Positions 4,349 through 42,483 of a DNA stretch of 46,099 bases are shown here, one piece after another. The DNA comes from Modestobacter altitudinis. Lineage in GTDB: Bacteria > Actinomycetota > Actinomycetes > Mycobacteriales > Geodermatophilaceae. The notes under the pieces were generated by a model. That model searched no databases, was not told the origin of the DNA, and was given only the letters and a program-made list of their open reading frames with translations. Numbering within the stretch: the first letter of the stretch is position 1; each line of letters begins with the position of its first letter. The stretch covers positions 1 to 46,099 of the forward strand of contig NZ_SJEW01000037.1 of NCBI RefSeq assembly GCF_005930475.1. Reading direction: 5' to 3'. The position numbers were made by a program, and so were the translations under genes.

Positions 4349-5530
4349 TCAGGACCGGGTGCTGGCCGTGACCGTGAACGTGGGGTCGCGGGTGACCTGC
4401 CGGGTCGGGCCGACGATGCGGCGCAGCGCGTCGCGGTGCGGCAGGTGGCTGTTGTAGACGCACCACAGCTCGCCCCCCGGGCGCAGCACCCGGGCGGCGC
4501 CGGCGAACAGCCGGTGCGCCAGCGTCTCGGAGACCGCGACCCCGGCGTGGAACGGCGGGTTGCAGACGACGAGGTCGACGCTGCCCGCCGGCAGGCTGCC
4601 GGCGGCGTCGTCCCGGACGACCCGCACTCGGTCGGCCAGCCCGTTGGCGGCGACCGTGGCCACGGCCGAGGCCACCGCGGCCGCGGACTGGTCCACGCCG
4701 ACGACCGCCAGCCCGGGCCGGGCTGCGGCCAGCGCGACCGCCAGGACCCCGGTGCCGCAGCCGAGGTCGACCGCCGATGCAGCGTCGGGGACGGCGCCGG
4801 GCAGCGCACCGAGCAGCGTCCGGGTGCCGCGGTCGACCTTGACCCCGGCGAACGCCGAGCCGTGCGCGCAGACGGTGAGGCCGAGGTCGGCGTGCTCCCG
4901 GCAGACCGGGAAGGAGCTCTGCACCGGGCGGGGGCCGCGGGCGACGAGCACCCGGGACTTCTGCCGGGCCAGGGTGGCGTGCACGTCGGTGAAGCCCTCG
5001 GCCAGCACGTCGTTCATGCCGAGCGTCATGTGCTTGACCCGGCCGCCCACGTAGAGGGTCACCTCCGGGTCGGCGCCGGTGGCCACCACCTGGACCAGTT
5101 CCCGCAGCGCGTCGCGGCTCTTGGGTGCCTTCGCCAGCACGACCCGCGCGCCGCGCAGCAGGTCGGCGTCCAGCTGCGGCACCGAGCGGTAGCTGCCGAC
5201 GTGCCCGGTCCGCTCGGCGTTGGCCGCCAGCGCCAGCTCACCGACCAGCAGGTCCTGGTGGACCCGGACGTCGGTGGCGCCGTGCAGCGCGACGGCGCCC
5301 AGGGTCAGCGCGCCGTGACCGTCGTCCACCACGACCACCGCGCCGGGGTGGGCGGCGAGGTCGGCAGCGGCCTCGTCGAGGAGCAGCCGGTCGGTGGCGT
5401 CGACGGCCACCAGGTCGGGTGCGTCGACGTCGGGCTCACGACGCAGCTGGGCGAAGAGCGGAAGGACCCCTCTGCCCCCCACGCCTCGCGAGCTCGGCGC
5501 GGGCCCCTGCAGAGGGGCCGGGAACGACAT
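4349..5530 (-). CDS. RsmC/RlmG-like class I methyltransferase
   Basis: About 393 residues if translated from ATG 5530. The N-terminal half is the degenerate Rossmann domain of RsmC/RlmG proteins ([20 protein letters not shown], later [13 protein letters not shown]). The C-terminal half is catalytic: SAM motif [16 protein letters not shown] and the N-methylating NPPF motif in [10 protein letters not shown]. The family methylates guanine N2 in 16S or 23S rRNA. The first ~23 codons lie inside a repeat hairpin (5460-5526) also found at other gene ends, so this N-terminus is probably not ancestral. In-frame GTG 5482 or a start further in (about [12 protein letters not shown]) are alternatives. It follows msrA on the same strand, 11 bases after its stop. 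The 128 bases between this gene's stop and the chemoreceptor start hold nothing I can name. Confidence 0.85.
5460..5526 (-). repeat. Gene-end hairpin element, copy 1
   Basis: A ~67-bp element matching copies at 14067, 27318 and 41634. On the minus strand the outer arms are GGCCCCTCTGC and GCAGAGGGGTCC, enclosing GCAGGGGCCCGCGCCGAGC and GCGAGGCGTGGGGGG. It lies 15 bases past the msrA stop, fitting a transcription terminator or attenuator for msrA, and overlaps the 5' end of the downstream methyltransferase. Pairing is seen in sequence; the role is inferred. Confidence 0.7.
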
Positions 5531-5541
5531 CCGGTCCCTCG

Positions 5542-6195
5542 TCAGACGCCGGGCAGGCCGACGGGGCAGGCGACGCCGGTGGAGTTCACCGGGCAGTAGC
5601 CGTTCGGGACCTTGTACAGGTACTGCTGGTGGTAGCCCTCGGCGTGGTAGAACTCGCCGAGCGGGGCGATCTCGGTGGTGATCTCGCCGTAGCCGGCCGC
5701 CGTCAGCCGCTCCTGGAACAGGTCGCGGCTGAGCTTGGCGGCCGCCTCCTGCTCGGGGCCCTGGGTGTAGACGGCCGAGCGGTACTGGGTGCCGACGTCG
5801 TTGCCCTGGCGCATGCCCTGGGTCGGGTCGTGCTCCTCCCAGAACTCCTTGAGCAGGCGGTCGTAGGAGATGACGGCCGGGTCGAAGACGACCAGCACGA
5901 CCTCGGTGTGGCCGGTGCGTGCCGAGCAGACCTCGTCGTAGGTGGGGTGCGGGGTGTGGCCACCGGCGTAACCGGCTGCGGTGGACCAGACGCCCGGGGT
6001 CTCCCAGAACACCTTCTCGACACCCCAGAAGCAGCCGGCGCCGAAGACGGCGGTCTGCATGCCGTCGGGGAACGGCGGCTGGATGCGGTTGCCGTTGACC
6101 GCGTGCACCTCGGGGACGCGGTAGGTCGGCTCGCCACGGCCGGCCAGGGCGTCCTCCGCCGTGACCGGCTGGGTCTTGGCGCGGGAGAAGAACAT
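5542..6195 (-). CDS. msrA: Peptide-methionine (S)-S-oxide reductase MsrA
   Basis: A 217-residue cytoplasmic protein that reduces the S epimer of methionine sulfoxide in proteins. The catalytic motif [13 protein letters not shown] has the nucleophile Cys55. The family signatures [28 protein letters not shown] and [11 protein letters not shown] are present. Cysteines in the C-terminal [14 protein letters not shown] are the likely resolving pair for thioredoxin recycling. Length is typical for the long bacterial form. The start ATG 6195 is preceded by TAGGAT six bases upstream, a -10 box placed for a leaderless mRNA. The stop is followed by hairpin element copy 1. No msrB is adjacent. Confidence 0.96.
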
Positions 6196-6201
6196 GCCTC
6201 G

Positions 6202-6207
6202 ATCCTA
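6202..6207 (-). promoter_or_regulatory. Putative leaderless -10 box of msrA
   Basis: TAGGAT on the minus strand, six bases before the msrA ATG. It fits the actinobacterial TANNNT -10 consensus and would start transcription at or next to the start codon. No clear -35 is visible. Confidence 0.45.
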
Positions 6208-6281
6208 GGTCCGCGCTGCGACAACGGTCGCCGTCCGCCATTGTGGCCACTTCGGCGGACGAGGGACGGAGCGCACTGCAC

Positions 6282-7046
6282 ATGACGACAGAGCTGTCGG
6301 GTCGGGTGGCCCTGGTGACCGGAGCCGCGAGCGGGCTGGGCCGGGCGGTGGCGGCCGCGCTGGCCGAGGCCGGGGCCACCGTGGTGCTGGGCGACATCGA
6401 CACCGCCGGGGCGGAGAAGACCCGGGCCGAGATCGGGGACCGCGCCGAGGTGGTCGCGCTGGACGTCACCGACGACGACGCGCGCCGCCGGGTGGTCGCC
6501 GACCTGTTCGCCCGGCACGGCGACGCCTTCGACCTGCTGGTCAACGTCGCGGGCATCGACCGGCCCGGCTACATCACCGACATCGACCTCGCCGACTACC
6601 GGATGGTGCACGCGGTCAACTGCGAGGGCCCGGTGTTCCTGACCAGCGAGTTCCTCAAGGTGGTGCAGCAGCGGCCGGCCGACACCGTCGCCGACGTGGT
6701 GCACGTGACCTCGCTGTCCGCGGTGACCTCGGGGGCCGGGGCGATCGCCTACAACAGCTCGAAGGCGGCGTTCCGCAGCGCCACCCGGTGCATCCAGCGG
6801 GAGCTGCGGGAGAAGGCGACCGTGGACGCGGACGGGGCGGAGACCCCGTTCCCGGCCCGCGTGCACAGCATCGTGCCGGCCGCGATGGACACCCCGATGA
6901 TGGAGCGCTGGGGGATCCCGGCGCACCGGATGATGCCGCCGGCCGACGTCGCCCGGATGGTGCTGACGATGGTCACGATGCCGGACACCAGCTTCGTGCC
7001 CGAGGTGTTCGTGGTGCCGCGCAACGAGCCGGACTTCCCGCGGTGA
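6282..7046 (+). CDS. SDR family oxidoreductase
   Basis: A 254-residue classical short-chain dehydrogenase. The nucleotide loop is TGAASGLG; an Asp in LGDIDTAG after beta-2 favours NAD(H). NVAGIDRPG stands in place of the usual NNAG; the catalytic Ser is in VTSLSAV and Tyr-x-x-x-Lys in AYNSSKAAF. The ATG at 6282 is preferred, with GGACGGAG about ten bases upstream; GTG 6243 would add 13 residues. The last four bases overlap the following MDR gene, so the two reductases are co-translated and probably act in one pathway. The substrate is unknown. The 86 bases shared with divergent msrA carry both promoters. Confidence 0.9.
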   Translation: MTTELSGRVALVTGAASGLGRAVAAALAEAGATVVLGDIDTAGAEKTRAEIGDRAEVVALDVTDDDARRRVVADLFARHGDAFDLLVNVAGIDRPGYITDIDLADYRMVHAVNCEGPVFLTSEFLKVVQQRPADTVADVVHVTSLSAVTSGAGAIAYNSSKAAFRSATRCIQRELREKATVDADGAETPFPARVHSIVPAAMDTPMMERWGIPAHRMMPPADVARMVLTMVTMPDTSFVPEVFVVPRNEPDFPR

Positions 7047-8062
7047 GCATCCCGACCCGGGAGTGGCGGCTGGTCCGCCGGCCGCACGGCGAGCCGGTGG
7101 ACGCCGACTTCGCCCTGGTCACCGGTGAGCGCCCGGACCCCCAGCCCGGCGAGGTGGTCGTGCGGACGATCGCGATGTCGGTCGACCCGTACATGCGGGG
7201 CCGGATGAACGCGACGAAGTCCTACGCACCCAGCTGGGAGCTGGGCGAGACGATGCAGGGCGGAGCCATCGGGCAGGTCGTCACCTCACGCTCGGACGAC
7301 GTGCCCGAGGGCGCGCTCGTCCTGCACGGGGCGGGCTGGCGGGACGTCGCCGTGCTGCCGGCCGCGCACGTGTCGGTGGTCCAGCCGCTGCCCGGCCTGC
7401 CGCTGTCGCTGTACCTCGGCGTGCTCGGCATGCCCGGGCTGACCGCCTGGGCGGGGCTGTTCCGGCTGGCGTCGTTCCAGTCCGGCGACGCGGTGTTCGT
7501 GTCCGGGGCGGCCGGCGCGGTGGGCAGCCTGGTCGGGCAGTTCGCCCGGCTGCGCGGGGCCTCCCGGGTGGTCGGCAGCGCCGGGACGCCGGAGAAGGTG
7601 GCCTGGCTGCGGTCCATCGGCTTCGACGCGGCCTTCGACTACCACGACGGCGCGGTCGCGGACCTGCTCGCCGGTGCCGCCCCGGACGGGATCGACGTCT
7701 TCTTCGACAACGTCGGCGGCGAGCACCTGGAGGCGGCGATCACCTCGTTCCGGACGTTCGGCCGGGCGGCGCTGTGCGGGTCGATCTCGAACTACAACGC
7801 GGTCAGCGCGCCGCCGGGGCCGCGGAACCTGGGCCTCGTCGTGGGCAAGCAGTTGTCCCTGCGGGGGTTCATCGTCGGCTCGCACGCCGACCTGCGGCCG
7901 GAGTTCGTCACCGCGGTGTCGGGGTGGTTGCGCGAGGGGTCGGTGGTGGCGCGGGAGACCGTCGTCGAGGGGCTGGACTCCGCCGTGGACGCGTTCCGCG
8001 CACTGCTGAGCGGGGGCAACACCGGGAAGATGGTCGTCCGGATGGGGCCCGACCCGAGCTGA
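7043..8062 (+). CDS. NADP-dependent MDR oxidoreductase (leukotriene B4 dehydrogenase-like)
   Basis: A 339-residue zinc-independent medium-chain reductase. The N-terminal PTREWRLVRRPHGEP and DPYMRGRM are signatures of the LTB4 12-hydroxydehydrogenase/prostaglandin reductase branch (YncB/CurA relatives). The coenzyme loop is SGAAGAVGSLVGQFA, and FDNVGGEHLEAAI marks the active-site region. Members reduce the double bond of alpha,beta-unsaturated ketones and aldehydes with NADPH. GTG 7043 overlaps the SDR stop (GTGA). A hairpin at 8071-8103 follows. The physiological substrate is not inferable. Confidence 0.92.
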   Translation: MSIPTREWRLVRRPHGEPVDADFALVTGERPDPQPGEVVVRTIAMSVDPYMRGRMNATKSYAPSWELGETMQGGAIGQVVTSRSDDVPEGALVLHGAGWRDVAVLPAAHVSVVQPLPGLPLSLYLGVLGMPGLTAWAGLFRLASFQSGDAVFVSGAAGAVGSLVGQFARLRGASRVVGSAGTPEKVAWLRSIGFDAAFDYHDGAVADLLAGAAPDGIDVFFDNVGGEHLEAAITSFRTFGRAALCGSISNYNAVSAPPGPRNLGLVVGKQLSLRGFIVGSHADLRPEFVTAVSGWLREGSVVARETVVEGLDSAVDAFRALLSGGNTGKMVVRMGPDPS

Positions 8063-8070
8063 TCGACGGT

Positions 8071-8103
8071 GCCCGGGGACGGCGGCCTGCGCCCTCCCCG
8101 GGC
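8071..8103 (+). terminator. Hairpin terminator after the SDR/MDR pair
   Basis: Perfect 9-bp stem GCCCGGGGA / TCCCCGGGC with a 15-base loop, eight bases after the MDR stop. There is no U-tract, as is usual in GC-rich actinobacteria. Confidence 0.55.
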
Positions 8104-8146
8104 GCGGTCTGGTTGACCGGTCGACGATCCGGGCAGAGTGCTGATC

Positions 8147-8356: not shown

Positions 8357-8431
8357 CGGACGGGTGGGGGCCCCGTCGCGGCCGCCGCGACGGACCCCGC
8401 CGGACCGCATCCGCCGACACCGAAGGACACC

Positions 8432-9303: not shown

Positions 9304-10227
9304 ATGACCGAGCACGCGCACGCTGTCGCTCCGCGACGCCGCCTCCCCCGCTCCGCCGGCCGGGCGCTGGTGCTCGCCGGCGTCGGGACCGGCTTGTGGC
9401 TGCTCGGCTCGGCCGCCTCGACCGCTTCGGCGGAGGAGGCCGTGCCCCCGCCCGGTCCGGTGCTCTCCGTCGCCGCCGACCTGCTCACGCCGGTCGGCCA
9501 GGTCGTCGCACCGATGACGCAGCAGGTCGTGGTCCCGGCGGTCAGCCCCGTGGTGCGACCGGTCGTCACGGACGTCCTGACGCCGACGGTCCAGCAGGTC
9601 GTCGTCCCGGTCGCGGACCAGGTCGTCGTCCCCGTGGCGGACCAGGTCGTCGTGCCCGTGGTGGACCGCGTCGTCCTCCCCGTGGTGGACCAGATCGTCG
9701 TCCCCGTGGTGGACCAGATCGTCGTCCCCGTGGTCGACCCCGTGGTAGACCCCGTGGTCGACCCCGTCATTGAGCCGGTCGTCGAGGACGTCGTCGTGGA
9801 CGTCGTCCCGGTCGTGCCCCTCCCCACCCCGGCCGTCGACGGTGCCACCGCCCTGCCCGAGCACGCTGACGACGCGTCGTCCGTCGCGCTGCCGACGGCG
9901 ACCGTCGCGGACCCCGCCGACGACTCGGCACCGTCCCCGGCGAGGGCGTCCTCGGCCGCTCCGGCGGCTGGTGACGAGGTCCTCGCCGGTCCGGCCGCGC
10001 CCGGGACGACGCCCGGGCCGTCGGCGCCCGCGGCGCCGGCGGGCCTGCCCGCCACGCCCGTGCCCACGTCGTCGGCAGGGCCCGGCTCCTCCACCGGTGA
10101 CCAGACGCCGGCCGACCTCTCCTCCGCTCCGCGGACGGTGCTCGGCGCCGCCCTCGCGGCGGCGCTCGGGACCGGGTCCCGACCGGCCCGTCCCGCCTCC
10201 TTCGAGCCCTCCTTCTCGCCCGACTGA
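9304..10227 (+). CDS. Secreted DQVVVPVV-repeat protein, unknown function
   Basis: A 307-residue exported protein. A basic N-terminus and hydrophobic segment (GRALVLAGVGTGLWLLG) lead to a likely signal-peptidase site after ASTASA. Residues ~100-160 form a regular repeat: eight-residue units DQVVVPVV, then four-residue DPVV units with a conserved Pro and Asp. This suggests alternating short beta strands and turns. The C-terminal ~130 residues are a low-complexity Ala/Pro/Ser/Thr stalk with no sortase motif or second membrane span. ATG 9304 has a strong GGGGAGG site. It lies 106 bases upstream of a chaplin on the same strand, so a shared role at the cell surface is plausible. I do not recognise the family. 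Confidence 0.7.
   Translation: MTEHAHAVAPRRRLPRSAGRALVLAGVGTGLWLLGSAASTASAEEAVPPPGPVLSVAADLLTPVGQVVAPMTQQVVVPAVSPVVRPVVTDVLTPTVQQVVVPVADQVVVPVADQVVVPVVDRVVLPVVDQIVVPVVDQIVVPVVDPVVDPVVDPVIEPVVEDVVVDVVPVVPLPTPAVDGATALPEHADDASSVALPTATVADPADDSAPSPARASSAAPAAGDEVLAGPAAPGTTPGPSAPAAPAGLPATPVPTSSAGPGSSTGDQTPADLSSAPRTVLGAALAAALGTGSRPARPASFEPSFSPD
9591..9785 (+). repeat. In-frame 24-bp/12-bp tandem repeat within the VVVP protein
   Basis: About six units of 24 bp encoding DQVVVPVV followed by 12-bp units encoding DPVV. The DNA repeats are near-identical (GACCAGRTCGTCGTCCCCGT), so the tract could expand or contract by slippage. Confidence 0.75.
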
Positions 10228-10333: not shown

Positions 10334-11551
10334 ATGAACGTGTGGATGAAGCGCGCCCTGCAGACGGGCCTGTTCACCGGCGGCCTGCTGGCCCTCGGCA
10401 CCGGCATCGCCTCCGCCGACGACGGCGTGGCCGACGTGACCGTCCCGGTCACCGTCACCGACAACGCCCTGGCCGTCCTCGGCACGGCCGGCAGCACCCC
10501 GGCAGAGATCGACCTGCCGGCGCTGGACGGCACCCTCGCCGCCGACCTCGGGGCGATCAGCGTGACCGTGCCGATCACGATCGGCGGGAACGCGGCGGAC
10601 GTCGCGGGGATCGACGTCGTGCAGCCCGACGCCGAGATCCCCGCCGCTCCCGCGGCAGGCCCGGCGACGGGCTCGCTCGTGGACGTCGACGTCCCGGTGA
10701 GCGTCACCGGCAACGCGGCCGCTGTTCTCGGCGAGGCGACCGCCGACAGCCCGGCCGCCCCGCCGGCGACGGGCAGCGGGGCCGGCGGGTCACTCGCGGA
10801 CGTCGACGTCCCGGTGACCGTCTGCGGCAACGGCCTCGGCGTCCTCGGCGACGCCACCGGGAGCTGCACTCCCCCGGCCACCACGCCGGGCACCGGCGGG
10901 GACCCCGTTGTCGACGTCGACGCGCCGGTGACCGTCTGCGGCAACGGCCTCGGCGTCCTCGGCGACGCCACCGGGAGCTGCACTCCCCCGGCCACCACGC
11001 CGGGCACCGGCGGGGACCCCGTCGTCGACGTCGACGCGCCGGTGACCGTCTGCGGCAACGGCCTCGGCGTCCTCGGCGACGCCACGGGGAACTGCACTCC
11101 CCCGGCCACCACGCCGGGCACCGGCGGCAACCCCGCCATCGACGTCGACGTCCCGGTGACCGCCTGCGGCAACGGCCTCGCCCTCCTCGGCGACGCCACC
11201 GGCGGCTGCACCACCCCGGCGACGCCGGTGCAGCCGACCACCCCCGGCACCGGGGGCACCCCGGCCGACCCGACCACGCCGGAGGTCCTGACCGGTCTGC
11301 AGGGTCCGGCCACGTCGGCCGGCCCGGTCACCCTCGGCGCGGTGGACCAGCACGGTGCGGTCCGCGAGGTGCGCGCCCCGGCCTCGTCCGGCGTCCTGGT
11401 GACCGCTGACGGCAGCAGCTCCGGGACGTCCGGAGGGCTGGCCTACACCGGCACCCCGGTGGGCACGCTGGCGCTCAGCGGCCTGCTCGCCCTGGCGTTG
11501 GGGCTCGCTCTGATCGTGCTCCCCCGCCGTCGGACCAGCACCCTCGGCTGA
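10334..11551 (+). CDS. Long chaplin with class E sortase anchor
   Basis: A 405-residue secreted, wall-anchored protein. A signal peptide ends GTGIASA-DD. Seven chaplin-like repeats of the form VDVPVTVxGNxxxVLG follow. The first three lack cysteines; the last four carry the chaplin Cys pair (VTVCGNGLGVLGDATGSC) and repeat every 38 residues. A Pro/Thr linker leads to LAYTG near residue 369, a ~20-residue membrane span and an Arg tail, the LAxTG signal used by class E sortases for long chaplins in Streptomyces. Chaplins form hydrophobic amyloid-like surface layers. AAGGA precedes ATG 10334. No sortase or rodlin is in the window. Confidence 0.88.
   Translation: MNVWMKRALQTGLFTGGLLALGTGIASADDGVADVTVPVTVTDNALAVLGTAGSTPAEIDLPALDGTLAADLGAISVTVPITIGGNAADVAGIDVVQPDAEIPAAPAAGPATGSLVDVDVPVSVTGNAAAVLGEATADSPAAPPATGSGAGGSLADVDVPVTVCGNGLGVLGDATGSCTPPATTPGTGGDPVVDVDAPVTVCGNGLGVLGDATGSCTPPATTPGTGGDPVVDVDAPVTVCGNGLGVLGDATGNCTPPATTPGTGGNPAIDVDVPVTACGNGLALLGDATGGCTTPATPVQPTTPGTGGTPADPTTPEVLTGLQGPATSAGPVTLGAVDQHGAVREVRAPASSGVLVTADGSSSGTSGGLAYTGTPVGTLALSGLLALALGLALIVLPRRRTSTLG
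10811..11230 (+). repeat. Four 114-bp tandem repeats encoding Cys-containing chaplin units
   Basis: CCGGTGACCGTCTGCGGCAA-type starts fall at about 10811, 10925, 11039 and 11153, exactly 114 bp apart. The first three are nearly identical in DNA, indicating recent duplication or gene conversion. Confidence 0.85.
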
Positions 11552-13442: not shown

Positions 13443-13889
13443 ATGAGCCTGGACTGGACGACGAGCCCCGCCGACGCAGCTGCGCACTTCGCCCACCGGC
13501 TGGCCGTGGAGACCGACGTCTCCGACGTGCACGCCGCCCTGGAGTCCGGCCGGCCCGGGTTCGTGCTGGTCGACAGCCGCAGCGCCGAGTCCTGGGCGCA
13601 GGGGCACGTGCCCGGCGCCGTCCACCTGCCCGGCCGCGAGATCGCCGGGCGGGCCGCGGCCGAGCTCGACTCCGCCGTCCCGGTGGTCACCTACTGCTGG
13701 GGTCCGGGCTGCAACGGCGCCACCCGGGCAGCGATGACGCTGGCCCGGCGGGGCTACCGGGTGCGGGAGATGATCGGCGGGTTCGAGTACTGGGCCCGGG
13801 AGGGCCTGGCCGTCGAGACGGCGGACGGCGTCGCGCGACCGGACGTCGACCCGCTCACCGCACCGGCCGGCATCAGCTGCGGCTGCTGA
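13443..13889 (+). CDS. Single-domain rhodanese-like sulfurtransferase
   Basis: A 148-residue rhodanese fold: VLVDSRSAESWAQGHVPGAVHLPGREI is the central sheet and CH2 region. The active loop is YCWGPGCNGATRAA; its first Cys is the likely persulfide carrier, a WGPGCN loop typical of an actinobacterial rhodanese group. The protein ends ISCGC, with two further cysteines. It is divergent from gntR-acdS. An in-frame open stretch follows directly after its TGA (see 13890-14066). The sulfur acceptor is unknown. Confidence 0.88.
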   Translation: MSLDWTTSPADAAAHFAHRLAVETDVSDVHAALESGRPGFVLVDSRSAESWAQGHVPGAVHLPGREIAGRAAAELDSAVPVVTYCWGPGCNGATRAAMTLARRGYRVREMIGGFEYWAREGLAVETADGVARPDVDPLTAPAGISCGC

Positions 13890-14066
13890 GCCTCAGCACA
13901 CCCCCGGCAGCTGGACCTGCGGGTCGTCGAGCGCGAGTTCACCCTCGTCGGGGTCAACCCGGCGCTGGACTCCTTCGCCGACCTCGCTGCCGAGCTCAGG
14001 AGCACCTCCGAGCGCGAGGCCGCCGAGCACGGCCGCCTGCTCAGCACCACCCGCGTCGCCGCCTGA
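13890..14066 (+). pseudogene. Start-less coding remnant after the rhodanese
   Basis: The frame after the rhodanese TGA stays open for 58 codons with near-perfect GC3 (about QLDLRVVEREFTLVGVNPAL then DSFADLAAELRSTSEREAA), ending at TGA 14064. It contains no ATG, GTG or TTG. It therefore looks like the 3' end of a gene that lost its start, or a C-terminal extension cut off by a stop. I do not recognise the family. Hairpin element copy 2 begins directly after its stop codon, as it does after intact genes elsewhere. Confidence 0.4.
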
Positions 14067-14130
14067 AGAAGGCCCCTTCCACCCCACGCTCAGCGAGCTG
14101 AGCGCGGGCCCCAGGGAGGGGGCCGCTCCA
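14067..14130 (+). repeat. Gene-end hairpin element, copy 2
   Basis: Starts right after TGA 14064-14066 with AGAAGGCCCCTTCC and ends with GGAGGGGGCCGCTCCA. The inner part CGCTCAGCGAGCTGAGCG is a near-perfect hairpin. It matches copies at 5460, 27318 and 41634. The convergent GNAT gene ends inside it. Confidence 0.7.
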
Positions 14131-14668
14131 GCCCGCCCCGAGGGGGCGGGTCGTCGGAGAGCCGGCTCCACAGCAGCTCGTCGTGCTTCATGCCGTCGGG
14201 GTAGCGGTACGACCGGCGGAGCCGGCCCTCCTGCGTGAAGCCGGCCTTGACAGCGACCCGGGCCGAGGCGGTGTTCCCCACCGCGTGGAACAGCTGGACG
14301 CGGTCCAGCTCCAGGGCGGAGAACCCCCAGCGGCACACGGCATCGGTGCAACGCGCGGCGATCCCACGGCCGCGGGCGGCGGCCACCGTCCAGTAGCCGA
14401 CCTCGCCCTCGTCCTGCACGCGGTCGATCTCGTGCAACGACAGCGAGCCGACCAGCACGCCGCCGTCCTCGACCGCCCACGAGCAGTGCTCGGCGGTCCA
14501 CCCCGCGATCCGGGCCAGCCGCGCGCGGGCGCCGTCCAGGGTGGTCGCCTCCTCGCCGTTCCAGCGGCGCAGCAGCGGGTCCTGGGCCGCGGCGCACAGG
14601 GCCTCGGCGTCGTCGTCGCGCCACGGCCGGAGCACCAGCTCGTCGACCGACAGGCTGACCGGCTCCAC
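14090..14668 (-). CDS. GNAT N-acetyltransferase, RimJ/RimL type
   Basis: A 192-residue acetyltransferase. LVLRPWRDDDAEAL is the N-terminal strand and helix, the acetyl-CoA loop is ARGRGIAARC, and the C-terminal motif is NTASARVAVKAGFTQEG. The fold matches RimJ/L-type ribosomal-protein or small-molecule acetylators. The GTG start lies three bases after the stop of the upstream GntR gene, with GGAG in that gene's end, so it is the last gene of the nag operon. Its final ~12 residues (ERPPPWGPRSAR) are encoded by hairpin element copy 2 and are unlikely to be conserved. A link to amino-sugar acetylation is suggested by context only. Confidence 0.85.
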   Translation of the reverse strand: MEPVSLSVDELVLRPWRDDDAEALCAAAQDPLLRRWNGEEATTLDGARARLARIAGWTAEHCSWAVEDGGVLVGSLSLHEIDRVQDEGEVGYWTVAAARGRGIAARCTDAVCRWGFSALELDRVQLFHAVGNTASARVAVKAGFTQEGRLRRSYRYPDGMKHDELLWSRLSDDPPPRGGLERPPPWGPRSAR

Positions 14669-26529: not shown

Positions 26530-27312
26530 ATGGAGATCTCCGGCGCACGCATCTGGGTCACCGGAGCCTCGACCGGGATCGGCGCGGCGCTGGCGCGCGA
26601 GCTGGCCGACCGGGGCGCCCGGGTGGCGATCAGCGCCCGCAGCGCCGACGTCCTGGCCGAGGTCGCCGGGGGCCGGATGGTCGTCGTCCCGGTCGACGTC
26701 ACCGACCGGGCGGCGACCGTCGCCGCAGGTCAGAGCGTGCGGGAGGCACTCGGCGGGCTGGACGTCGCGGTGCTCAACGCGGGCACCTGGTCGCAGTTCC
26801 ACGTGGAACCGTGGGACTCCCAGCTGTTCGCCGACCACCTGCAGGTCAACGTGATGGGCGCGGTGCACACGCTGGAGGCGGTGGTGCCGCAGATGCTGGC
26901 CGAGGGCCGCGGCCGGGTCGTCGGGACGGCATCGGTCGCCGGCTACCGCGGGCTGCCCGGCTCGGAGGCCTACGGAGCCGGCAAGGCGGCGCTGCTCAAC
27001 CTGCTGGAGGCGCTGCGCGGGTCGCTGGGGCCGCGCGGCATCGTCGTCCAGACGGTGTCACCGGGCTTCGTGCGGACCCCGATGACCGACCGGAACCGGT
27101 TCCCGATGCCGTTCCTGGTCGAGCCGGAGGCAGCCGCCCGGACGATCGCCGACGGCATCGCCCGGGACAAGGCCGAGATCGTCTTCCCGCTCCCGATGGC
27201 GGTCGCGATGAAGCTCGCGCGGGTGGTGCCGGTGCGGGCCTGGACGGCGCTCACCGCCGCACTGGCCCGCCGCGGCCTCCACGGCGGCCCGAGCCGCCGC
27301 GGAGACACGTGA
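26530..27312 (+). CDS. SDR family oxidoreductase
   Basis: A 260-residue short-chain dehydrogenase. TGASTGIGAALARE is the nucleotide loop; ISARS after beta-2 favours NADP(H). LNAGTWS replaces NNAG; Ser is in TASVAGYRG and Tyr-x-x-x-Lys in AYGAGKAAL. The C-terminal helix AVAMKLARVVPVRAW resembles DltE-like membrane-associated SDRs. It is convergent with fabG, with hairpin element copy 3 between. The substrate is unknown. Confidence 0.88.
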   Translation: MEISGARIWVTGASTGIGAALARELADRGARVAISARSADVLAEVAGGRMVVVPVDVTDRAATVAAGQSVREALGGLDVAVLNAGTWSQFHVEPWDSQLFADHLQVNVMGAVHTLEAVVPQMLAEGRGRVVGTASVAGYRGLPGSEAYGAGKAALLNLLEALRGSLGPRGIVVQTVSPGFVRTPMTDRNRFPMPFLVEPEAAARTIADGIARDKAEIVFPLPMAVAMKLARVVPVRAWTALTAALARRGLHGGPSRRGDT

Positions 27313-27317
27313 CGTGC

Positions 27318-27384
27318 TGGAACGGCCCCCTCGCAGGGACCCGGCCCGAGCGGAGCGAGGGTCGGGGGGCGAGGGGGTCCTTCC
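27318..27384 (-). repeat. Gene-end hairpin element, copy 3
   Basis: A ~67-bp element filling the gap between two convergent genes. Seen from fabG it starts right after the TGA as GGAAGGACCCCCTCGC and ends GCGAGGGGGCCGTTCCA. It can form a 9-bp outer stem plus an inner stem, and probably terminates both genes. Confidence 0.75.
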
Positions 27385-28140
27385 TCAGTCCCGGGGACCG
27401 CCGGCGACGTAGATGACCTGACCGGAGACGAACCCGGCGCCCTCGCTGCACAGGAACGACGCGGTGTGCGCGATGTCCGCGGGCTGGCCGACCCGGGCGA
27501 CCGGGATCTGCTTGGCGGCCATCTCCTTGAACTGCTCGAACGGCACGCCCACCCGCTCGGCGGTCTGCGCGGTCATCTCGGTCTCGATGAAGCCCGGCGC
27601 GATCGCGTTGGCGGTGATGTTCCAGCGGCCCAGCTCGATGGCCAGGGTCTTGGTGAAGCCCTGCATGCCGGCCTTGGCCGCGGAGTAGTTGACCTGGCCG
27701 CGGTTGCCCAGCGCCGAGACGCTGGAGAGGTTCACGATCCGGCCGAACTCGGCCTGCACCATGTGCGCCTGGGCGGCCTTGGTCATCAGGAAGGCGCCGC
27801 GCAGGTGCACGCCCATGACCGCGTCCCAGTCCGAGACGCTCATCTTGAACAGCAGGTTGTCCCGGGTGATGCCGGCGTTGTTGACCAGCACGGTCGGCGC
27901 GCCGAGCTCCTGTGCGACCCGCTCCACCGCCGCGGCCACCGAGGCCTCGTCGGCGACGTCGGCGCCCACCGCGAGCGCCTCTCCCCCGGACCGCTGGATC
28001 TCCTCGACGGTGCCCTTGCAGGCCGCCTCGTCCAGGTCGAGCACGGCGACCTGCATCCCGTCCTGGGCGAACCGCCGGGCGATGGCCGCGCCGATGCCCC
28101 GTGCTGCTCCGGTGATGATCGCCGTCCGCTGCTGTGCCAC
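27385..28140 (-). CDS. fabG: 3-oxoacyl-[acyl-carrier-protein] reductase
   Basis: A 251-residue SDR that reduces 3-oxoacyl-ACP or -CoA with NADPH. TGAARGIGAAIARR, NNAGITRDNLLFKMS, Ser in NLSSVSALG and NYSAAKAGMQG are all FabG signatures, as is APGFIETEMT. A PhaB-like acetoacetyl-CoA role is possible. GTG 28140 has GAGGAG upstream. The stop abuts hairpin element copy 3. Confidence 0.9.
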   Translation of the reverse strand: MAQQRTAIITGAARGIGAAIARRFAQDGMQVAVLDLDEAACKGTVEEIQRSGGEALAVGADVADEASVAAAVERVAQELGAPTVLVNNAGITRDNLLFKMSVSDWDAVMGVHLRGAFLMTKAAQAHMVQAEFGRIVNLSSVSALGNRGQVNYSAAKAGMQGFTKTLAIELGRWNITANAIAPGFIETEMTAQTAERVGVPFEQFKEMAAKQIPVARVGQPADIAHTASFLCSEGAGFVSGQVIYVAGGPRD

Positions 28141-28294: not shown

Positions 28295-28305
28295 CGGCGG
28301 CAACA

Positions 28306-28389
28306 CACGACAGGGGAGCGCCTCGGCGCTGAGAGTGCGGGCAACCGCAGACCCTCGAACCTGATCCGGGTCATGCCGGCGCAGGGAGT
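28306..28389 (+). ncRNA. TPP riboswitch (thi-box)
   Basis: Conserved TPP aptamer elements in order: ACAGGGGAGC, GGCGCTGAGAGTGCGG (the CTGAGA core), ACCCTCGAACCTGATCCGGG and TCATGCCGGCGCAGGGAG. It ends two bases before the TGGAGGAG ribosome site of ykoE, so thiamine pyrophosphate probably blocks translation initiation of the ykoEDC operon. This is the classical thi-box and a secure call. Confidence 0.95.
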
Positions 28390-28402
28390 CTGGAGGAGCA
28401 CC

Positions 28403-29011
28403 ATGGCCGCTCAGGCCGTCCGTCCGTCCGATGCTGCCCCGGCGACGCCGCGGTGGCGCACCGTCGACATCATCGTCACCGCCGTGCTGGGCGTCGCCTT
28501 CGGCGTCGTCTTCTGGGCGTGGTCGCTGGTCTCCAGCGCCGCCGGCCCCGCGTTCGCGGCGTTCCCGCCCGGCCAGGCCGTGCTCTACGGCGTCTGGCTG
28601 CTGGCCGCGGTCGTCATCCCGCTGATCGTCCGCAAGCCGGGCGCGGCGCTGTTCGGTGAGCTGATCGGCGCCACCGTCGAGGCGCTGCTCGGCTCGCACT
28701 TCGGCTCACTGGTCATCCTCTACGGCCTGCTCCAGGGCGCCGCCGCCGAGCTGGGCTTCGCGCTGTTCCGCTACAAGCGCTTCGGCTGGCTGCAGGCCCT
28801 GCTGGCCGCCGCCCTCGCCGGGACCGCCGCCGCCGTCCTGGACTTCGTCAACTACTACCCGGACTGGACCGGCGGCTGGAAGACGACCTACCTGCTGCTG
28901 GTGGTCGCCAGCACGGTCGCCGTCGCGGGTGCCGGCGGCATGGCGCTCACCCGCGCGCTGGCCGCCAGCGGCGCACTGTCCTCGTTCGCCTCCGGCCGCA
29001 CCCGCGTGTGA
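28403..29011 (+). CDS. ykoE: ECF transporter substrate-binding component YkoE
   Basis: A 202-residue membrane S component with about five to six spans (IIVTAVLGVAFGVVFWAWSL is the family opening; a polar segment FVNYYPDWTGGWKTTYLL). YkoE proteins bind thiamine or its pyrimidine precursor HMP. It directly follows a TPP riboswitch and overlaps ykoD by four bases. Confidence 0.92.
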   Translation: MAAQAVRPSDAAPATPRWRTVDIIVTAVLGVAFGVVFWAWSLVSSAAGPAFAAFPPGQAVLYGVWLLAAVVIPLIVRKPGAALFGELIGATVEALLGSHFGSLVILYGLLQGAAAELGFALFRYKRFGWLQALLAAALAGTAAAVLDFVNYYPDWTGGWKTTYLLLVVASTVAVAGAGGMALTRALAASGALSSFASGRTRV

Positions 29012-36641: not shown

Positions 36642-36718
36642 CTACCCCGCTCCCCTCCTCGCCCGGGGCAGACGTCCCCGCCCGCCACCGATCATGCCTG
36701 GTGGGCCCGGCCCTGCCC

Positions 36719-38554: not shown

Positions 38555-39342
38555 GTAGCCAGCCTAAGGACAGGACGGCGGTGCGCGCGCTGCCACGAGT
38601 GCCGGCGGGGCGGCGGCGCGGTGGGCGTGCCGGGCAGCTCACGCAGCGGCGCGGGGTCGTCGTCGTCCGGGGCTCTGTGCCGGAGGTCGGGGAGCGGCGC
38701 CAGGACCAGGCTGTACAGCGGCGGCGGGACCGGCCGGTCCCAGCTCAGCCGCGCGCCGTGCGTGCCGCTCCCCCAGGTGGCCGCCTGCCGGGCCAGCCCG
38801 CGCAGCCCGGCCAGCAGCGACCGCACCGGTGCGGTTCCCCGTGGCGCGGGAGGGGCGAGCCGGACCGGGGTGCGCAGCAGGTCCACGGAGAAGTCGGTGG
38901 CGAACTCGATGGCCGCCTCGAGGTCGTGGTCCACCGCCGCCGGACGCGGGGGCGCGGGGAGCACGGGGGGCGCGGCGGCCGGCACGGGTGCCACCGCCAC
39001 GGCCGGGGTGGTCGCCCGGGTCGTCCCGTCGCCCAGCCGGTGGACGCGCAGCGGCGTGCCCCGCCAGCTCAGGTGCGCCCCGTCGGCGCCGGCACCCCAG
39101 GTCGCCAGGCGCCTGCTCACCCGCTGCCAGCGGGAGCGGACCGGCGTCCCGTGGGCCGGCGGGCCGCCGGGTCCGTCGCCGGGCACCGCCGTCGCGAGCC
39201 CGACGGACGGCCCGACCGCGAGGTCGGCGGTGGCGTACCGCTCGGCCGGCTGGGTGGGTCCGGTGCCGAACAGCCCAGGGGCACCGGCGGGTCCGGCGGC
39301 GAGCACGGCGGTGCGGGAGCCCGGTGCGGTCTGCACAGCCAT
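38188..39342 (-). CDS. Unrecognised Ala/Pro-rich protein with duplicated ATWG..LSW motif
   Basis: ATG 39342 with GGAAGG upstream. Coding-type codons run for about 250 residues. Two related segments stand out: SRRLATWGAGADGAHLSWRG (~80-100) and ARQAATWGSGTHGARLSWDR (~185-205), each preceded by Arg-rich helices and separated by Pro/Ala linkers. An acidic stretch APDDDDPAPL follows. No signal peptide, membrane span or known domain is seen. Codon bias fades near 38580 and no stop occurs until 38188, so the last ~122 codons overlap ggt. The stop was probably lost, or the true end lies near 38580 through a frameshift. Confidence 0.5.
   Translation of the reverse strand: MAVQTAPGSRTAVLAAGPAGAPGLFGTGPTQPAERYATADLAVGPSVGLATAVPGDGPGGPPAHGTPVRSRWQRVSRRLATWGAGADGAHLSWRGTPLRVHRLGDGTTRATTPAVAVAPVPAAAPPVLPAPPRPAAVDHDLEAAIEFATDFSVDLLRTPVRLAPPAPRGTAPVRSLLAGLRGLARQAATWGSGTHGARLSWDRPVPPPLYSLVLAPLPDLRHRAPDDDDPAPLRELPGTPTAPPPRRHSWQRAHRRPVLRLATCSPRVRNWPAPSGWSPRPTGSPARQAWRPSRPAATPSMPRSLRVSPCRSSNRTSTAPVGRSRSSSPGARGQPPARGSPSSCPVRGSPPRAPRSRPTANWASTWSRAPGSSPPPCQAPSARG
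38561..38566 (-). promoter_or_regulatory. Putative leaderless -10 box of ggt
   Basis: TAGGCT on the minus strand, six bases before GTG 38554. Confidence 0.4.
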
Positions 39343-39631
39343 GGGGTGCCGCCTTCCGGGGAGTAGTTGCCGCGGTCGGGGAAGGGACCGCGGGCAAGGA
39401 AGAACCTACGGACGGCGACGCCGGTGGACCCCGTCCCGGGGCGACCCGGTCCGGCCGCGTGACCGAACCGTTGTGCGACCCCCTCGGGGCGGTCGACGAC
39501 CCCGCCGCCGAGGCGGGCACTTGTCGACCGTCGTCGACGAAAGTCCAGGTCACCGGCCGATCCGGCGGTCGATGACCTCGGCGGCCGGGGCGACGCACCG
39601 GCGTGTCGCGTACGTCTGATGGGATGTCGCC
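39343..39631. other. Gene-free divergent region
   Basis: 289 bases between two divergent genes. On the minus strand TAGGTT (about 39403-39408) could be a -10 box for the duplicated-motif gene, followed by an 8-bp hairpin CCGCGGTC / GACCGCGG in its leader (about 39371-39394). On the plus strand TACGTCT lies about 20 bases before the nucleoside hydrolase start. I see no coding pattern or known riboswitch. Confidence 0.4.
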
Positions 39632-40597
39632 GTGGCTGTGACCCCCCTCGTGATCGACACGGACCCCGGCATCGACGACGCCCTGGCGATCCTGCTGGCG
39701 CTGGCCAGCCCGGAGGTGGACCTGCGCCTGGTCACGACGGTGCACGGCAACGTCGACCTGGCGCAGACGACGGAGAACGCGCTCCGGGTGCTGCACCTGG
39801 CGGGCCGCTCCGACGTGCCGGTCGCGGTCGGCGCCGCCACCTCGCTGGTGGTCCCGCAGGCGGAGCGGGCCGGGCACGTCCACGGTGCCGCCGGGCTGGG
39901 CGGCGTCGTCCTGCCCCCGTCGCCGGCGTCGGTGGACCCGCGACCCGCCGTGGTCGCCCTGGCCGACCTCCTGCTGGCCAGCGAGGAGCCGGTCACCGTC
40001 GCGGCGATCGGCCCGCTGACCAATCTCGCGCTGCTGCTCGCCGTCTACCCCGACGCCGCCGCCCGGATCGGCCGGCTGGTCGTGATGGGCGGGTCCGCGA
40101 GCCGCGGCGGCAACGTGACCGCGGCGGCGGAGTTCAACGTGTGGGCCGATCCGGAGGCGGCCGCGGTGGTGTTCCGCGCCGGTCTCCCCACGGTGATGGT
40201 GGGCCTGGACGTCACGCTGCCCACCGTCCTGACCGAGGCCGGCATCGCCCGGTTCGCCGCGGCCGGCGGGGTCGGCTCCCAGGCCGCGGCGATCCTGCGG
40301 CAGTACCTGGACCACGCGCGGAGCAGCTACGGCACCGACGGCGTCGTCGTGCACGACGCGCTGGCGCTCACCGAGGCGATCGCACCGGGCACGCTGCACA
40401 CCGTGCGCCGCGACGTCGTCGTGGACACCGGGGCGAGCGCCGCACGCGGCCAGACGCTGGTCGACCGGCGCACCGTGTCGGCGGCGCCTGCGGCCGTCGA
40501 GGTCGCCGAGGGCGTGGACGGCCCCGCCGCAGTGGAGTTCCTGGTCAGCCGGCTGGTCGCCTACGGGGACGGGGCAGGCACGCCGGCCGGGGTCTGA
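39632..40597 (+). CDS. Inosine-uridine-type nucleoside hydrolase
   Basis: A 321-residue enzyme hydrolysing ribonucleosides to base and ribose. VIDTDPGIDDALAI is the calcium-binding signature, VTTVHGNVDLAQTTENAL the second motif, and AAEFNVWADPEAAAVVF the substrate region. VVVHDALAL carries the last Asp ligand. Whether it prefers purines or pyrimidines is unclear. Start GTG with no strong ribosome site. It may supply bases to salvage enzymes such as the PRTase at 1024, though the two are far apart. Confidence 0.92.
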   Translation: MAVTPLVIDTDPGIDDALAILLALASPEVDLRLVTTVHGNVDLAQTTENALRVLHLAGRSDVPVAVGAATSLVVPQAERAGHVHGAAGLGGVVLPPSPASVDPRPAVVALADLLLASEEPVTVAAIGPLTNLALLLAVYPDAAARIGRLVVMGGSASRGGNVTAAAEFNVWADPEAAAVVFRAGLPTVMVGLDVTLPTVLTEAGIARFAAAGGVGSQAAAILRQYLDHARSSYGTDGVVVHDALALTEAIAPGTLHTVRRDVVVDTGASAARGQTLVDRRTVSAAPAAVEVAEGVDGPAAVEFLVSRLVAYGDGAGTPAGV

Positions 40598-40718
40598 CCG
40601 GGGAGCGCGCCTCCGGGCTGACCCGGACACGGCGTGCCGGACCCCCCGTGCTGCGGTCCGAGACGCCGTCGTCCACCATGGTGCCGGGCGGAGCAACCGC
40701 CGACGGGAGGGGCTGACT

Positions 40719-41204
40719 GTGGGTGCACTGGTCTGGCCGTCTGCCGCGGTCCCGACCGAGGACGGCGACGTCTGGCGGTGGGAGCTGCCCACCGTGCACG
40801 ACGCCTCCCGGGTACGGATGGACCTGCGAGCCCGGCTGGCGCACCCGTCTCTGGCCTCCCGGTCGACGGAGGACGCCCGCGAGGGCCTGCTGCTGGTGTT
40901 CGAGGAGCTGTCCTCCAACGCCCTGCGGCACGGTGGCGGCTCGGTCGTGGCGTTGATCGTCGCGCTGCCCGCCGGCTGGCTGATCGTGCTCACCGACGGC
41001 GCGCCCGACTCGCCTCCGCAGCCCGCGGTCGACCGCGACCCCGCGTACGGCGGCATGGGGCTGCCGATGGTCGCCCAGCTGTCCATCGACTACGGCTGGT
41101 GCAACGAGCCCGGTCGCAAGCACGTCTGGGCCCGGCTCCCGTCCGGCCAGATGTCGGCCGAGGCGCTGCCGCGGCCCCGGTCCTCCTCGGGCCCGGCGGC
41201 CTAG
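40719..41204 (+). CDS. RsbW-like ATP-binding protein (second copy in window)
   Basis: A 161-residue GHKL domain: the N-box VFEELSSNALRHGGGSVVAL and the lid region GGMGLPMVAQLSIDYGW closely parallel the protein at 33648 (DEMASNALRHGGGG, GGLGLYLIAEMAEDHGW). G1 is again weak (LTDGAPDSPPQPA). Both share a PPQPAV-DRDP/GRDP segment, marking one subfamily. A C-terminal Ser/Pro tail is extra. GTG start with GGGAGGGG. Likely an anti-sigma or STAS kinase; the partner is unknown. Confidence 0.8.
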   Translation: MGALVWPSAAVPTEDGDVWRWELPTVHDASRVRMDLRARLAHPSLASRSTEDAREGLLLVFEELSSNALRHGGGSVVALIVALPAGWLIVLTDGAPDSPPQPAVDRDPAYGGMGLPMVAQLSIDYGWCNEPGRKHVWARLPSGQMSAEALPRPRSSSGPAA

Positions 41205-41208
41205 CAGG

Positions 41209-41610
41209 TCAGCCCGCCACCACCTGGACGTCGGTGAAGCCCTCGACGGTGGACGGCGGGACCAACCGCGCCGCGGTGCTGAACAGGCCGACGTCCGGGA
41301 CCCGGGCGCGCCCGGTACGGGCGTCGTTGCGCCGCCGGCAGGTCTCCAGCGGGACGTCGAGGAACACCGCCCGCACCGGGACGCCCGCGGCGACGGCGAG
41401 CTCGACCAGCGCCGCCCGCTCGGCCGGTGAGGGGTCGGTGTTGTCCACGACCACGCTGGCACCCTCGGCGAGCAGCTGGGCGACCACCCGGCGCTGCCGG
41501 GCCTCCCGGTGCCGCGCGTTCGGCCAGTGGTCCTTGCTGACGACCACGTGCGTCCCCGCCAGGTGCTCGGCGACCCAGGTGCTCTTCCCCGCCCCCTGCA
41601 ACCCCACCAT
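41209..41610 (-). CDS. Small P-loop (AAA/zeta-type) kinase
   Basis: A 133-residue nucleotide kinase-like protein with Walker A GLQGAGKST at residues 3-11, an SKDHWPNARHREARQRR helix, VVVDNTDPSPAERAAL (DNT motif of polynucleotide-kinase/YjjK-like ATPases) and a lid VPLETCRRRNDAR. It resembles the kinase half of T4 PNKP-like proteins. ATG 41610 is chosen, with ACGAG eight bases upstream; TTG 41619 is possible. Hairpin element copy 4 lies just upstream. Confidence 0.82.
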   Translation of the reverse strand: MVGLQGAGKSTWVAEHLAGTHVVVSKDHWPNARHREARQRRVVAQLLAEGASVVVDNTDPSPAERAALVELAVAAGVPVRAVFLDVPLETCRRRNDARTGRARVPDVGLFSTAARLVPPSTVEGFTDVQVVAG

Positions 41611-41633
41611 CACGACCAACTCGTTGCAGGCTT

Positions 41634-41696
41634 CAGCCGGCCCCCTGCAGGGGCCTACGGCGAGCGTGCGAGTCGTGGGGGGCAGGGGGTGTTTCC
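41634..41696 (-). repeat. Gene-end hairpin element, copy 4
   Basis: Begins right after the TGA of the 41697 gene as GGAAACACCCCCTGCCCC and ends GCAGGGGGCCGGCTG on the minus strand. The outer stem CCCCCTGC/GCAGGGGG differs from other copies on both sides, keeping pairing. Confidence 0.7.
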
Positions 41697-41966
41697 TCAG
41701 GCGGCGCGGACCGGCCGGACGTCGGCGCCCGCCGGCTCGTCGTCCTCGACCCGGCGCGGGGCCGGGTGCTCGACGAGCGCCAGCACCCGGCCGGCCATGA
41801 ACCGGGCGGTGCGCACCGGCGTGCCGCCGCGGGTCACCTCGGTGACCTCGACGAGCCCGCGCCCGTGCGTGGTCTCCACCCGGCGGCCGGCCCGAGTGGC
41901 CTCGATCTCGTAGGTGCGGCTGCTGCCGCCGGCGTCGACGACGACCTCGACACGGTCACCCTTCAC
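41697..41966 (-). CDS. Small conserved hypothetical protein
   Basis: An 89-residue soluble protein with a beta-rich first half (KGDRVEVVVDAGGSSRTYEI) and a pattern VETTHGRGLVEVTEVTRGGT. I recognise no named family; it resembles small actinobacterial proteins of unknown role. RBS GAGGAGG upstream of ATG 41966. It is divergent from the PRC-barrel gene across 128 bases. Confidence 0.65.
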   Translation of the reverse strand: MKGDRVEVVVDAGGSSRTYEIEATRAGRRVETTHGRGLVEVTEVTRGGTPVRTARFMAGRVLALVEHPAPRRVEDDEPAGADVRPVRAA

Positions 41967-42094
41967 GGGTCCTCCTCGCGTTGACGAACACCCGGTACAA
42001 CACCCCCCGGAGACACCCGATTCCGCTGGTCAACGGTTCAGCGGGCCGATCGCCGGGCATGCAGGAACGATTGCCCGTGACCCGAGGAGGACCC

Positions 42095-42442
42095 GTGTTC
42101 CCGGCCGAGAACATCCGTGACTGGCGCACCAAGAACGTCATAGACCCCGACGGGAGCAAGATCGGAACGCTGGAGTCGGTGTACGTGGACACGACGACCG
42201 ACCTGCCGTTCTTCGCCGCGGTCACCACCGGCATCATCGGCCGCCACAAGCTGACCTTCGTCCCGCTCACCAACGCCACCGTGACGCCCGACGCCATCCG
42301 GGTCACCGTGAGCAAGGACCTGACGAAGGACGCCCCGTCGATCGACACCGACGGCGAGCTCAGCGTGGAGGACGAGCCCGCCGTCTTCGCGCACTACTCG
42401 CTGCCGTACACCTCCGGCGTCCGGCGGCTCGCCCGCAGGTAG
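42095..42442 (+). CDS. PRC-barrel domain protein
   Basis: A 115-residue single PRC-barrel: NVIDPDGSKIGTLESVYVDT is the core and GIIGRHKLTFVPLTNA the second half. Stand-alone PRC proteins are often stress-induced and of unclear function. GTG 42095 has CGAGGAGG. Upstream, GTT-N16-GGGCAT (about 42036-42060) resembles sigma-B/F promoters (GTTT-N15-GGGTAT). The stop is followed by the short hairpin copy 5. Confidence 0.82.
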   Translation: MFPAENIRDWRTKNVIDPDGSKIGTLESVYVDTTTDLPFFAAVTTGIIGRHKLTFVPLTNATVTPDAIRVTVSKDLTKDAPSIDTDGELSVEDEPAVFAHYSLPYTSGVRRLARR

Positions 42443-42483
42443 CAGGAGCAGGGGCCCCCTGCCGACAGGGCAGGGAGCCTCCC
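42443..42483. repeat. Gene-end hairpin element, shortened copy 5
   Basis: Fills the gap between two convergent stops: GGGGCCCCCTGCC - GACA - GGGCAGGGAGCCTCCC. It keeps the outer arms of the longer copies but lacks the inner hairpin. It abuts the TGA of the NYN gene. Confidence 0.55.

Follow-up and report, generated by a model that had tools for sequence, protein, structure and literature searches.

A dispersed two-tier hairpin repeat set directly behind stop codons in Geodermatophilaceae

Several bacterial systems place hairpins close to gene boundaries. Ribosome termination structures (RTSs) are located directly behind stop codons. According to the accessible text of their description, they are commoner between gene pairs on opposite strands and after genes of abundant products, and depleted behind non-terminal operon genes (Chemla et al., 2020; PMC7518266). 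In Escherichia coli, some repetitive extragenic palindromes (REPs) lie within 15 nt of a stop codon and stall ribosomes there (accessible part of PMC12306157). Mycobacterial interspersed repetitive units (MIRUs) are said to insert at start codons and to carry an open reading frame (ORF; accessible part of PMC12548453). In E. coli, the ribosome represses an intrinsic terminator placed 5 bp after a stop codon, and such a terminator has its full effect only at distances of more than about 27-30 nt (accessible part of PMC4824070). Here, we analyse a hairpin element found in several copies on a 46,099-nt stretch of Modestobacter altitudinis DNA (contig NZ_SJEW01000037.1, assembly GCF_005930475.1), the whole of which is called the window. 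A preliminary description, made from the letters of this stretch, had proposed a family of five co-varying gene-end hairpins. No description of the repeat was found in the literature covered, which lay mostly outside subscription journals and included the accessible part of PMC9686282.

By sequence comparison, the element is a dispersed repeat specific to Geodermatophilaceae, set directly behind stop codons and mostly in sense orientation. It is about 66 nt long, or 75 nt with its tail. Two covariance models were used: R1 was built from the four full window copies, R2 is wider and has copies of the same genome among its sources. The M. altitudinis genome (G000) comprises 5.18 Mb in 161 contigs; the window is contig C92. 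RplK comparison places the genome in Geodermatophilaceae, with Geodermatophilus amargosae (94%), a Geodermatophilaceae metagenome-assembled genome (92%) and a Blastococcus one (91%) as named relatives. A scan of G000 with R1 gave 17,147 first-look candidates; 150 of these were scored, and at least 148 copies were found at E <= 3e-5, the window copies counted. This lower bound is more than chance would give, as the preliminary description had anticipated. An own-genome sample of 819,554 bases, analysed in full, yielded 73 matches with R1 at E <= 0.1 (one of them copy 2 of the window on the opposite strand) and 71 with R2 at E <= 0.001 (75 listed, the four weaker ones left out). By hand count, the sample stretches hold 50 of the 148 listed matches, and extrapolation leads to about 210 copies. 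A figure of about 450, calculated from the density of 71 per 819,554 bases, was set aside because the stretches were taken from hit-rich contigs.

The placement of the copies was determined in the same sample, with gene boundaries from our own gene finder. Of the gaps that measure 60 nt or more, 18 of 52 convergent, 44 of 243 tandem and 2 of 112 divergent ones contain an element (tandem versus divergent p 4e-6; convergent versus tandem p 0.014, with copies of either orientation). Shorter gaps, where the element scarcely fits, contain it in 1 of 354 cases, and 4 of 71 copies lie within called genes. In tandem gaps, 37 copies are in sense and 8 in antisense orientation (p 1.5e-5). The predicted enrichment at stop codons was found: 40 of 59 sense copies begin 0-2 nt behind the upstream stop, where copies spread evenly over the gap would be expected to give 12.2. 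The register is narrow (n=58), with TGA at +1 in 28 copies, TAG at +2 in 6 and TGA at 0 in 3. In 34 of the 52 copies measured, the stem starts 7-8 nt after the stop (first stem C, located by letter pattern). We also considered the stop codon as a part of the element and rejected this: by eye, none of nine antisense copies in tandem gaps has a stop at the +1 place, and the stop therefore belongs to the gene. The placement recurs elsewhere. Among 35 other genomes, each represented by its top-scoring copy and hence forming a biased set, 32 copies lie within -6 to +5 nt of a sense stop, as do 23 of 31 copies in G115, a genome of another genus.

Genes followed by a sense element have a slightly higher codon adaptation index (CAI; median 0.741, n=46) than others (0.709, n=265; p 2e-4); six reference genes, themselves element-bearing, were excluded from this test. 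Gene ends without the element also tend to carry hairpins: a stem of at least 8 bp is found within 80 nt in 168 of 268, and 36-nt windows have a mean folding energy of -14.1 kcal/mol at 12 nt and -11.2 kcal/mol at 60 nt behind the stop. Copies of G000 occupy the gaps nusG/rplK, rplK/rplA, rpsN/rpsH, rpsD/rpoA and rpoA/rplQ; we take these names and the operon status from translations and gene order. Directly after the hairpin, no T-run is present on either side. The sense 3' side reads CCGTTCCAG, the antisense 3' side TCCTTC.

The element is composed of GAAGGA, an outer stem, an asymmetric inner loop, an inner hairpin with CTCGCANGCTCG, the returning outer stem and GTTCCAGCACGTCACC. Its sense consensus is GAAGGACCCC-n4-CCCCCCAC-nnn-CTCGCANGCTCG-nnn-GCGGG-n-CCCTG-n4-GGGGCCGTTCCAG, to which some copies add CACGTCACC. 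GAAGGA is conserved beyond the needs of pairing; a Shine-Dalgarno-like reading of it is conceivable. As the preliminary description stated, outer stems differ in sequence and keep their pairing: the outer stem has 9 pairs and the inner one 8, and double changes occur at 13 of these 17 pairs. In 73 own-genome matches, 92.8% of the cells are paired, compared with 75.1% in shuffled and at most 52.1% in slid alignments, and the covariation score is 0.377 versus 0.122, with none of 500 shuffles as high. For 89 distinct copies from many genera, 97.0% of the cells are paired, 13 of 17 pairs are double-changed and the score is 0.434 versus 0.133. Both alignments were fitted to the structure model, so these values lean towards structure. 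Nearly all pair changes are of the Watson-Crick type on either strand, a pattern that would also arise from DNA-level copying or from selection on two strands. This means that compensatory change keeps the structure, but that it is a less firm basis than it seems for concluding selection on RNA or a cruciform. A dispersed repeat can covary strongly without being a terminator.

In the nusG/rplK gap, ten look-alike elements, chosen by eye among the 27 loci with an element, share 42 invariant columns; they belong to three genera plus G. amargosae and a Blastococcus metagenome-assembled genome. Their loop has an invariant TA...T with three variable middle letters (TAnnnT; L129, L135, L144, L151, L152, L176, L178, L185, L194 and L196). 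TAnnnT resembles the actinobacterial -10 box, and the nusG/rplK element may carry a promoter of rplK. No ORF of its own was noticed in the element. In a covariance-model search of 12 loci with copies for known Rfam families, only Pxr was reported beside a copy, with E 0.4 and 0.52, far under the threshold. The same kind of search of the window gave a thiamin pyrophosphate (TPP) riboswitch as sole match and no known RNA family at the copies.

The distribution confirms the proposed lineage-specific, dispersed character. With R1 at E <= 0.001, the element is found in 101 of 112 genomes and in 9 of 12 genera of Geodermatophilaceae. A survey of the order with R2 returned 42 of 249 genomes, 39 of them Geodermatophilaceae and three from other families with one or two copies each. 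In a survey of the phylum (n=396; 13 candidates scored per genome), matches were confined to M. altitudinis itself and one single 37-bit match. Copies in other families (L278 and L285 of G164, L279 of G173, L281 and L287 of G248) lie within -6 to +5 nt of a sense stop in four of five cases and represent either transfer or contaminating contigs. Within Geodermatophilaceae, a genome often has a hundred copies or more. G115 has 84 matches, and 22 other genomes of the genus have from 8 to at least 138, some of these assemblies being incomplete and many of the counts lower bounds set by the number of candidates scored. Copies within a genome have a likeness of 0.73-0.75, those of different genera one of 0.71.

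In the window, the copies and their adjoining features are the following:

5461..5526, plus strand: copy 1, full element (R1 81.0 bits, R2 82.0 bits)
14066..14131, plus strand: copy 2, full element (R1 80.2 bits; R2 54.7 bits at 14068-14131; fold z -2.83)
27309..27316, minus strand: 3' tail CACGTCAC of copy 3, a tail found in 8 sampled copies, copy 3 counted
27317..27382, minus strand: copy 3, full element (R1 67.5 bits; R2 77.4 bits at 27317-27383; fold z -2.53)
27385..27387, minus strand: TGA stop of the SDR gene 27385-28140 (minus strand), 2 nt ahead of copy 3 (1 nt with R2)
41631..41696, minus strand: copy 4, full element (R1 75.4 bits, R2 59.4 bits), flanked by tandem minus-strand genes
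41697..41699, minus strand: TGA stop of gene 41697-41966 (minus strand), immediately ahead of copy 4
42443..42484, minus strand: simple hairpin, formerly regarded as the fifth copy (R1 14 bits, E 0.22; fold z -2.16 and -2.28 on the two strands)

R1 scores of 67.5-81.0 bits for the four copies are expected by construction. These four form one family of two-tier hairpins of about 66 nt. The supposed fifth, located between two convergent stop codons, is a plain hairpin whose R1 score is at chance level and which is absent from the R2 matches at E <= 0.1. As an independent check, copies 1 and 4 form the top pair in a list of inverted repeats found in the window, with 84% complementarity over 49 nt; the 24 remaining pairs of the list reach 70-78%. 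The proposed start at a stop codon is clear for two of the four, copies 3 and 4, which abut a stop in sense orientation. Copy 3 occupies most of a 72-nt gap separating two convergent SDR genes, and the complement of its tail provides the TGA stop (27310-27312) of the convergent plus-strand gene. The sense strand of copy 4 folds no better than its shuffles (z 0.06). Copy 1 does not fit the claim: it is antisense to both flanking minus-strand genes and lies 15 nt past the stop of the PMSR/msrA gene 5542-6195 (PMSR by Pfam). Copy 2 is preceded by the in-frame TGA of a frame without a call from the gene finder; on the opposite strand, the GNAT gene 14090-14668 (minus strand) terminates within it. 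In the region 13443-14066 (plus strand), a presumably rhodanese-like ORF ends at the TGA 13887-13889. Beyond it, the reading frame continues for another 58 codons before it meets the TGA at copy 2; this continuation may be a small gene of its own, the result of a truncation or an extension that has decayed.

Two other features of the window were noticed. The TPP riboswitch at 28302-28404 (66.6 bits) directly precedes ORF 28403-29011 and two further plus-strand ORFs, perhaps a thiamin-related uptake operon. Coding tandem repeats are found at 9468-9827 (12/24-nt units in ORF 9304-10227) and at 10680-11223 (114-nt units in ORF 10334-11551), with units 60-96% identical to the reference copies.

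Comparison of close relatives demonstrates gain, loss or exchange of the element at corresponding gene ends. Among 53 rplK loci read by hand (50 of the 101 matched genomes plus three further records), 27 have an element between nusG and rplK and 19 have one between rplK and rplA; of these 19 elements, three are antisense and two weak. In the rplK/rplA gap, G000 has a sense element, G006 another hairpin, G007 an antisense element and G010 a different sense element. The exchanged block spans the last codon of rplK to the common GTGGGAGGG. Its flanks are near-identical: the 54 coding bases before the last rplK codon differ at one place, and little changes over the roughly 60 bases that precede rplA. 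When G006, G007 and G010 were compared with G000 (the more distant G020 being excluded), ribosomal-protein cluster spacers with an element in either genome had a median identity of 0.48 (21 comparisons; gene ends 0.95) and those without one a median identity of 0.92 (46 comparisons; gene ends 0.98), a difference with a p of 9e-7, which is optimistic, the same sites being reused in three genomes. Of seven element sites of G000, two are occupied in G007, three in G006, six in G010 and four in G020 (R2, E <= 0.01). A near-clean empty site exists at rpsD/rpoA of G007; the other aligned sites are replaced, not inserted. No target duplication, as expected from simple insertion, was seen by eye in flanks or aligned sites. 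In G049, exact tandem 66-nt copies lie at contig ends (L292 at the end of C24, L293 at the start of C18), where an assembly error is possible. A contig of G078 (L294, start of C27) terminates in partial tandem copies. Contigs ending within tandem copies indicate that short-read assemblies may mis-count arrays. Copies of the 3' half are present in G000. A Y1/REP-associated transposase (Y1_Tnp) was found in none of the 112 genomes of Geodermatophilaceae, with control matches in 5 of 14. The comparison suggests that the element is mobile. With its turnover and tandem copies, it behaves like the domesticated non-autonomous element that the preliminary description had envisaged.

How does the repeat compare with the described systems? 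Like an RTS, it is a stable structure immediately behind the stop codon, near the edge of the terminating ribosome; it is commoner where neighbours are on opposite strands (18/52 convergent versus 44/243 tandem gaps), and its hosts have a slightly higher CAI, as RTSs favour genes of abundant products (accessible text of PMC7518266). The available part of the same report treats RTSs as structures without common sequence, two motifs limited to a small group of E. coli genes aside, whereas here one homologous covarying family is seen. Furthermore, the element varies between close relatives and also occupies ribosomal-protein operon gaps. With REPs and the bacterial interspersed mosaic elements (BIMEs) built from them, it shares the nature of dispersed intergenic imperfect palindromes, some near stops (accessible part of PMC12306157). 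It differs from them and their transposases (REP-associated tyrosine transposases, RAYTs) by its two-tier fold and by the distance of at most 2 nt from the stop in most sense copies, and membership in the REP/RAYT system was rejected, as no Y1_Tnp match was found in the 112 genomes. MIRUs are likewise short actinobacterial repeats at gene-boundary codons and apparently mobile, and both occur in tandem copies. They differ in that MIRUs sit at start codons and have an ORF (accessible part of PMC12548453). With Rho-independent terminators, the element has in common a GC-rich hairpin at gene ends; it differs in having no T-run, in being nearer to the stop than E. coli terminators tolerate and in its presence in ribosomal-protein gaps. 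Integron attC sites lie behind genes and fold on the bottom strand. They were considered as possible relatives, but their core sites RYYYAAC/GTTRRRY are not visible in the consensus.

Our favoured reading, to which we give an even chance, is a REP-like repeat without a REP transposase that supplies hairpins behind stop codons and acts mainly at translation termination or on the 3' side of the mRNA. It is preferred because the placement matches that of RTSs, a plain terminator is unlikely and E. coli REPs near stops stall ribosomes. In the mRNA, the element would be a strong hairpin that meets the terminating ribosome at its leading edge. Such a hairpin would work as a ribosome termination structure that keeps terminated ribosomes from sliding on and re-initiating, and would also form a block on the 3' side where the coding part ends. 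A weak additional role as bidirectional terminator is possible between convergent genes. Each gene end would be a slot where some hairpin is useful, and the repeat an interchangeable part spreading into this slot with fast turnover.

A number of observations weigh against this reading. Eight of the 45 copies in tandem gaps are antisense, and the register at the stop is narrower than mere proximity would require. RTSs are reported, in the accessible text, to be depleted in operons, yet several copies are located in the (long) gaps of ribosomal-protein operons. The orthologous nusG/rplK site covaries modestly (n=10): 3 of 16 pairs, 6 cells, are changed on both sides, 91.3% of the cells are paired versus 87.1% in shuffled alignments, and the score is 0.126 versus 0.059, with 2 of 500 shuffles as high. 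Some relatives have few or no matches among 150 scored candidates (G039 0, G067 1, G055 2, G045 6). The turnover statistic is weakened by the reuse of sites, and some element-free spacers diverge too. In addition, the favoured reading does not explain the stronger fold of the antisense strand. Both strands are very stable; with copies below 55 nt excluded, the antisense strand is the more stable one in 66 of 70 and in 87 of 91 copies under RNA parameters (mean difference 5.8 kcal/mol). DNA parameters give 62 of 70 and 84 of 91. Conserved mismatches of the sense strand are mostly A.C (6-61 in 72 of 82 cells, 21-43 in 63 of 89), and in the inner hairpin a conserved UC faces UC. On the antisense strand, A.C becomes G.U and UC/UC becomes G.A pairs. 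A conserved G.G at 4-63 points in the opposite direction to the A.C bias. This asymmetry may be a trace of the element's origin or of a mobile form, or may reflect an antisense function.

The preliminary description had favoured a terminator. A gene-end terminator without U-run, bidirectional and releasing RNA polymerase behind one gene or, if convergent, behind both, would account for the enrichment at gene ends, convergent ones most, for the stability of both strands, for Watson-Crick covariation on both strands, which suits a two-way device, and for the hairpins that gene ends generally carry near the stop. Against this role as main function speak the copies in the ribosomal-protein gaps named above, the missing T-run, the relatives with few or no copies and the distance of 7-8 nt from stop to stem, at which an intrinsic terminator of E. 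coli is under repression by the translating ribosome (accessible part of PMC4824070). Since the ribosome represses terminators so near to the stop and several copies lie in operon gaps, a plain terminator is unlikely. The stronger antisense fold suits a different device, a terminator or insulator on the strand opposite to the upstream gene, whose conserved tail UCCUUC would stop antisense or convergent transcription before it enters the gene. GAAGGA, conserved beyond pairing needs, is the 3' tail on this strand. When three pairs are added, 97.6% of the antisense cells are paired (2.4% unpaired, compared with 11.6% in sense) and 10.0% are G.U, near the 8.0% (29 of 363 pairs) in 17 tRNAs from the same stretches. 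Yet at the 15 remaining pairs a wobble bias between the strands was tested and not found (9 versus 13), so the bias rests on a few conserved, possibly inherited columns. Moreover, no obvious antisense transcript is present inside operons, and the stop register is left unexplained. We regard such an insulator as quite unlikely.

A purely selfish repeat would be a hairpin that moves as the antisense strand, in the form of RNA or single-stranded DNA, and persists only where it is harmless, directly behind stops. Such a repeat agrees with the range from 0 to at least 138 matches among relatives, with a site whose near-identical flanks enclose the element in one orientation, in the other or not at all, with tandem and half copies, with single copies in other families and with the slightly greater likeness within genomes. 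But harmlessness alone needs no spacing of 0-2 nt (40 copies, 12.2 expected), no target duplication was seen by eye, the 112 genomes have no Y1 transposase, and one nusG/rplK form with its invariant columns is common to several genera. This explanation is improbable, too. A bolder proposal is a still-moving miniature element of a new kind. It would home to stop codons by a transposase-free or yet unnamed route, with the antisense strand as folded active form. The post-stop hairpins that it supplies would be exchangeable parts, and in essential genes the hairpin would be swapped between sister species in one block with the stop and the codon before it. We consider this conceivable, though rather doubtful.

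For Geodermatophilaceae, the favoured reading of hairpins supplied behind stop codons would mean that a homologous repeat family is tied to the post-stop hairpin slot, a slot whose role was argued from structure statistics and a synthetic operon. In close relatives, the same gene end, even in nusG-rplK-rplA and rpsD-rpoA, is occupied by the element in either orientation or by another hairpin, or is empty. Because the gene ends of close relatives differ in occupancy in this manner, a natural comparison exists in which the function of post-stop hairpins can be tested.

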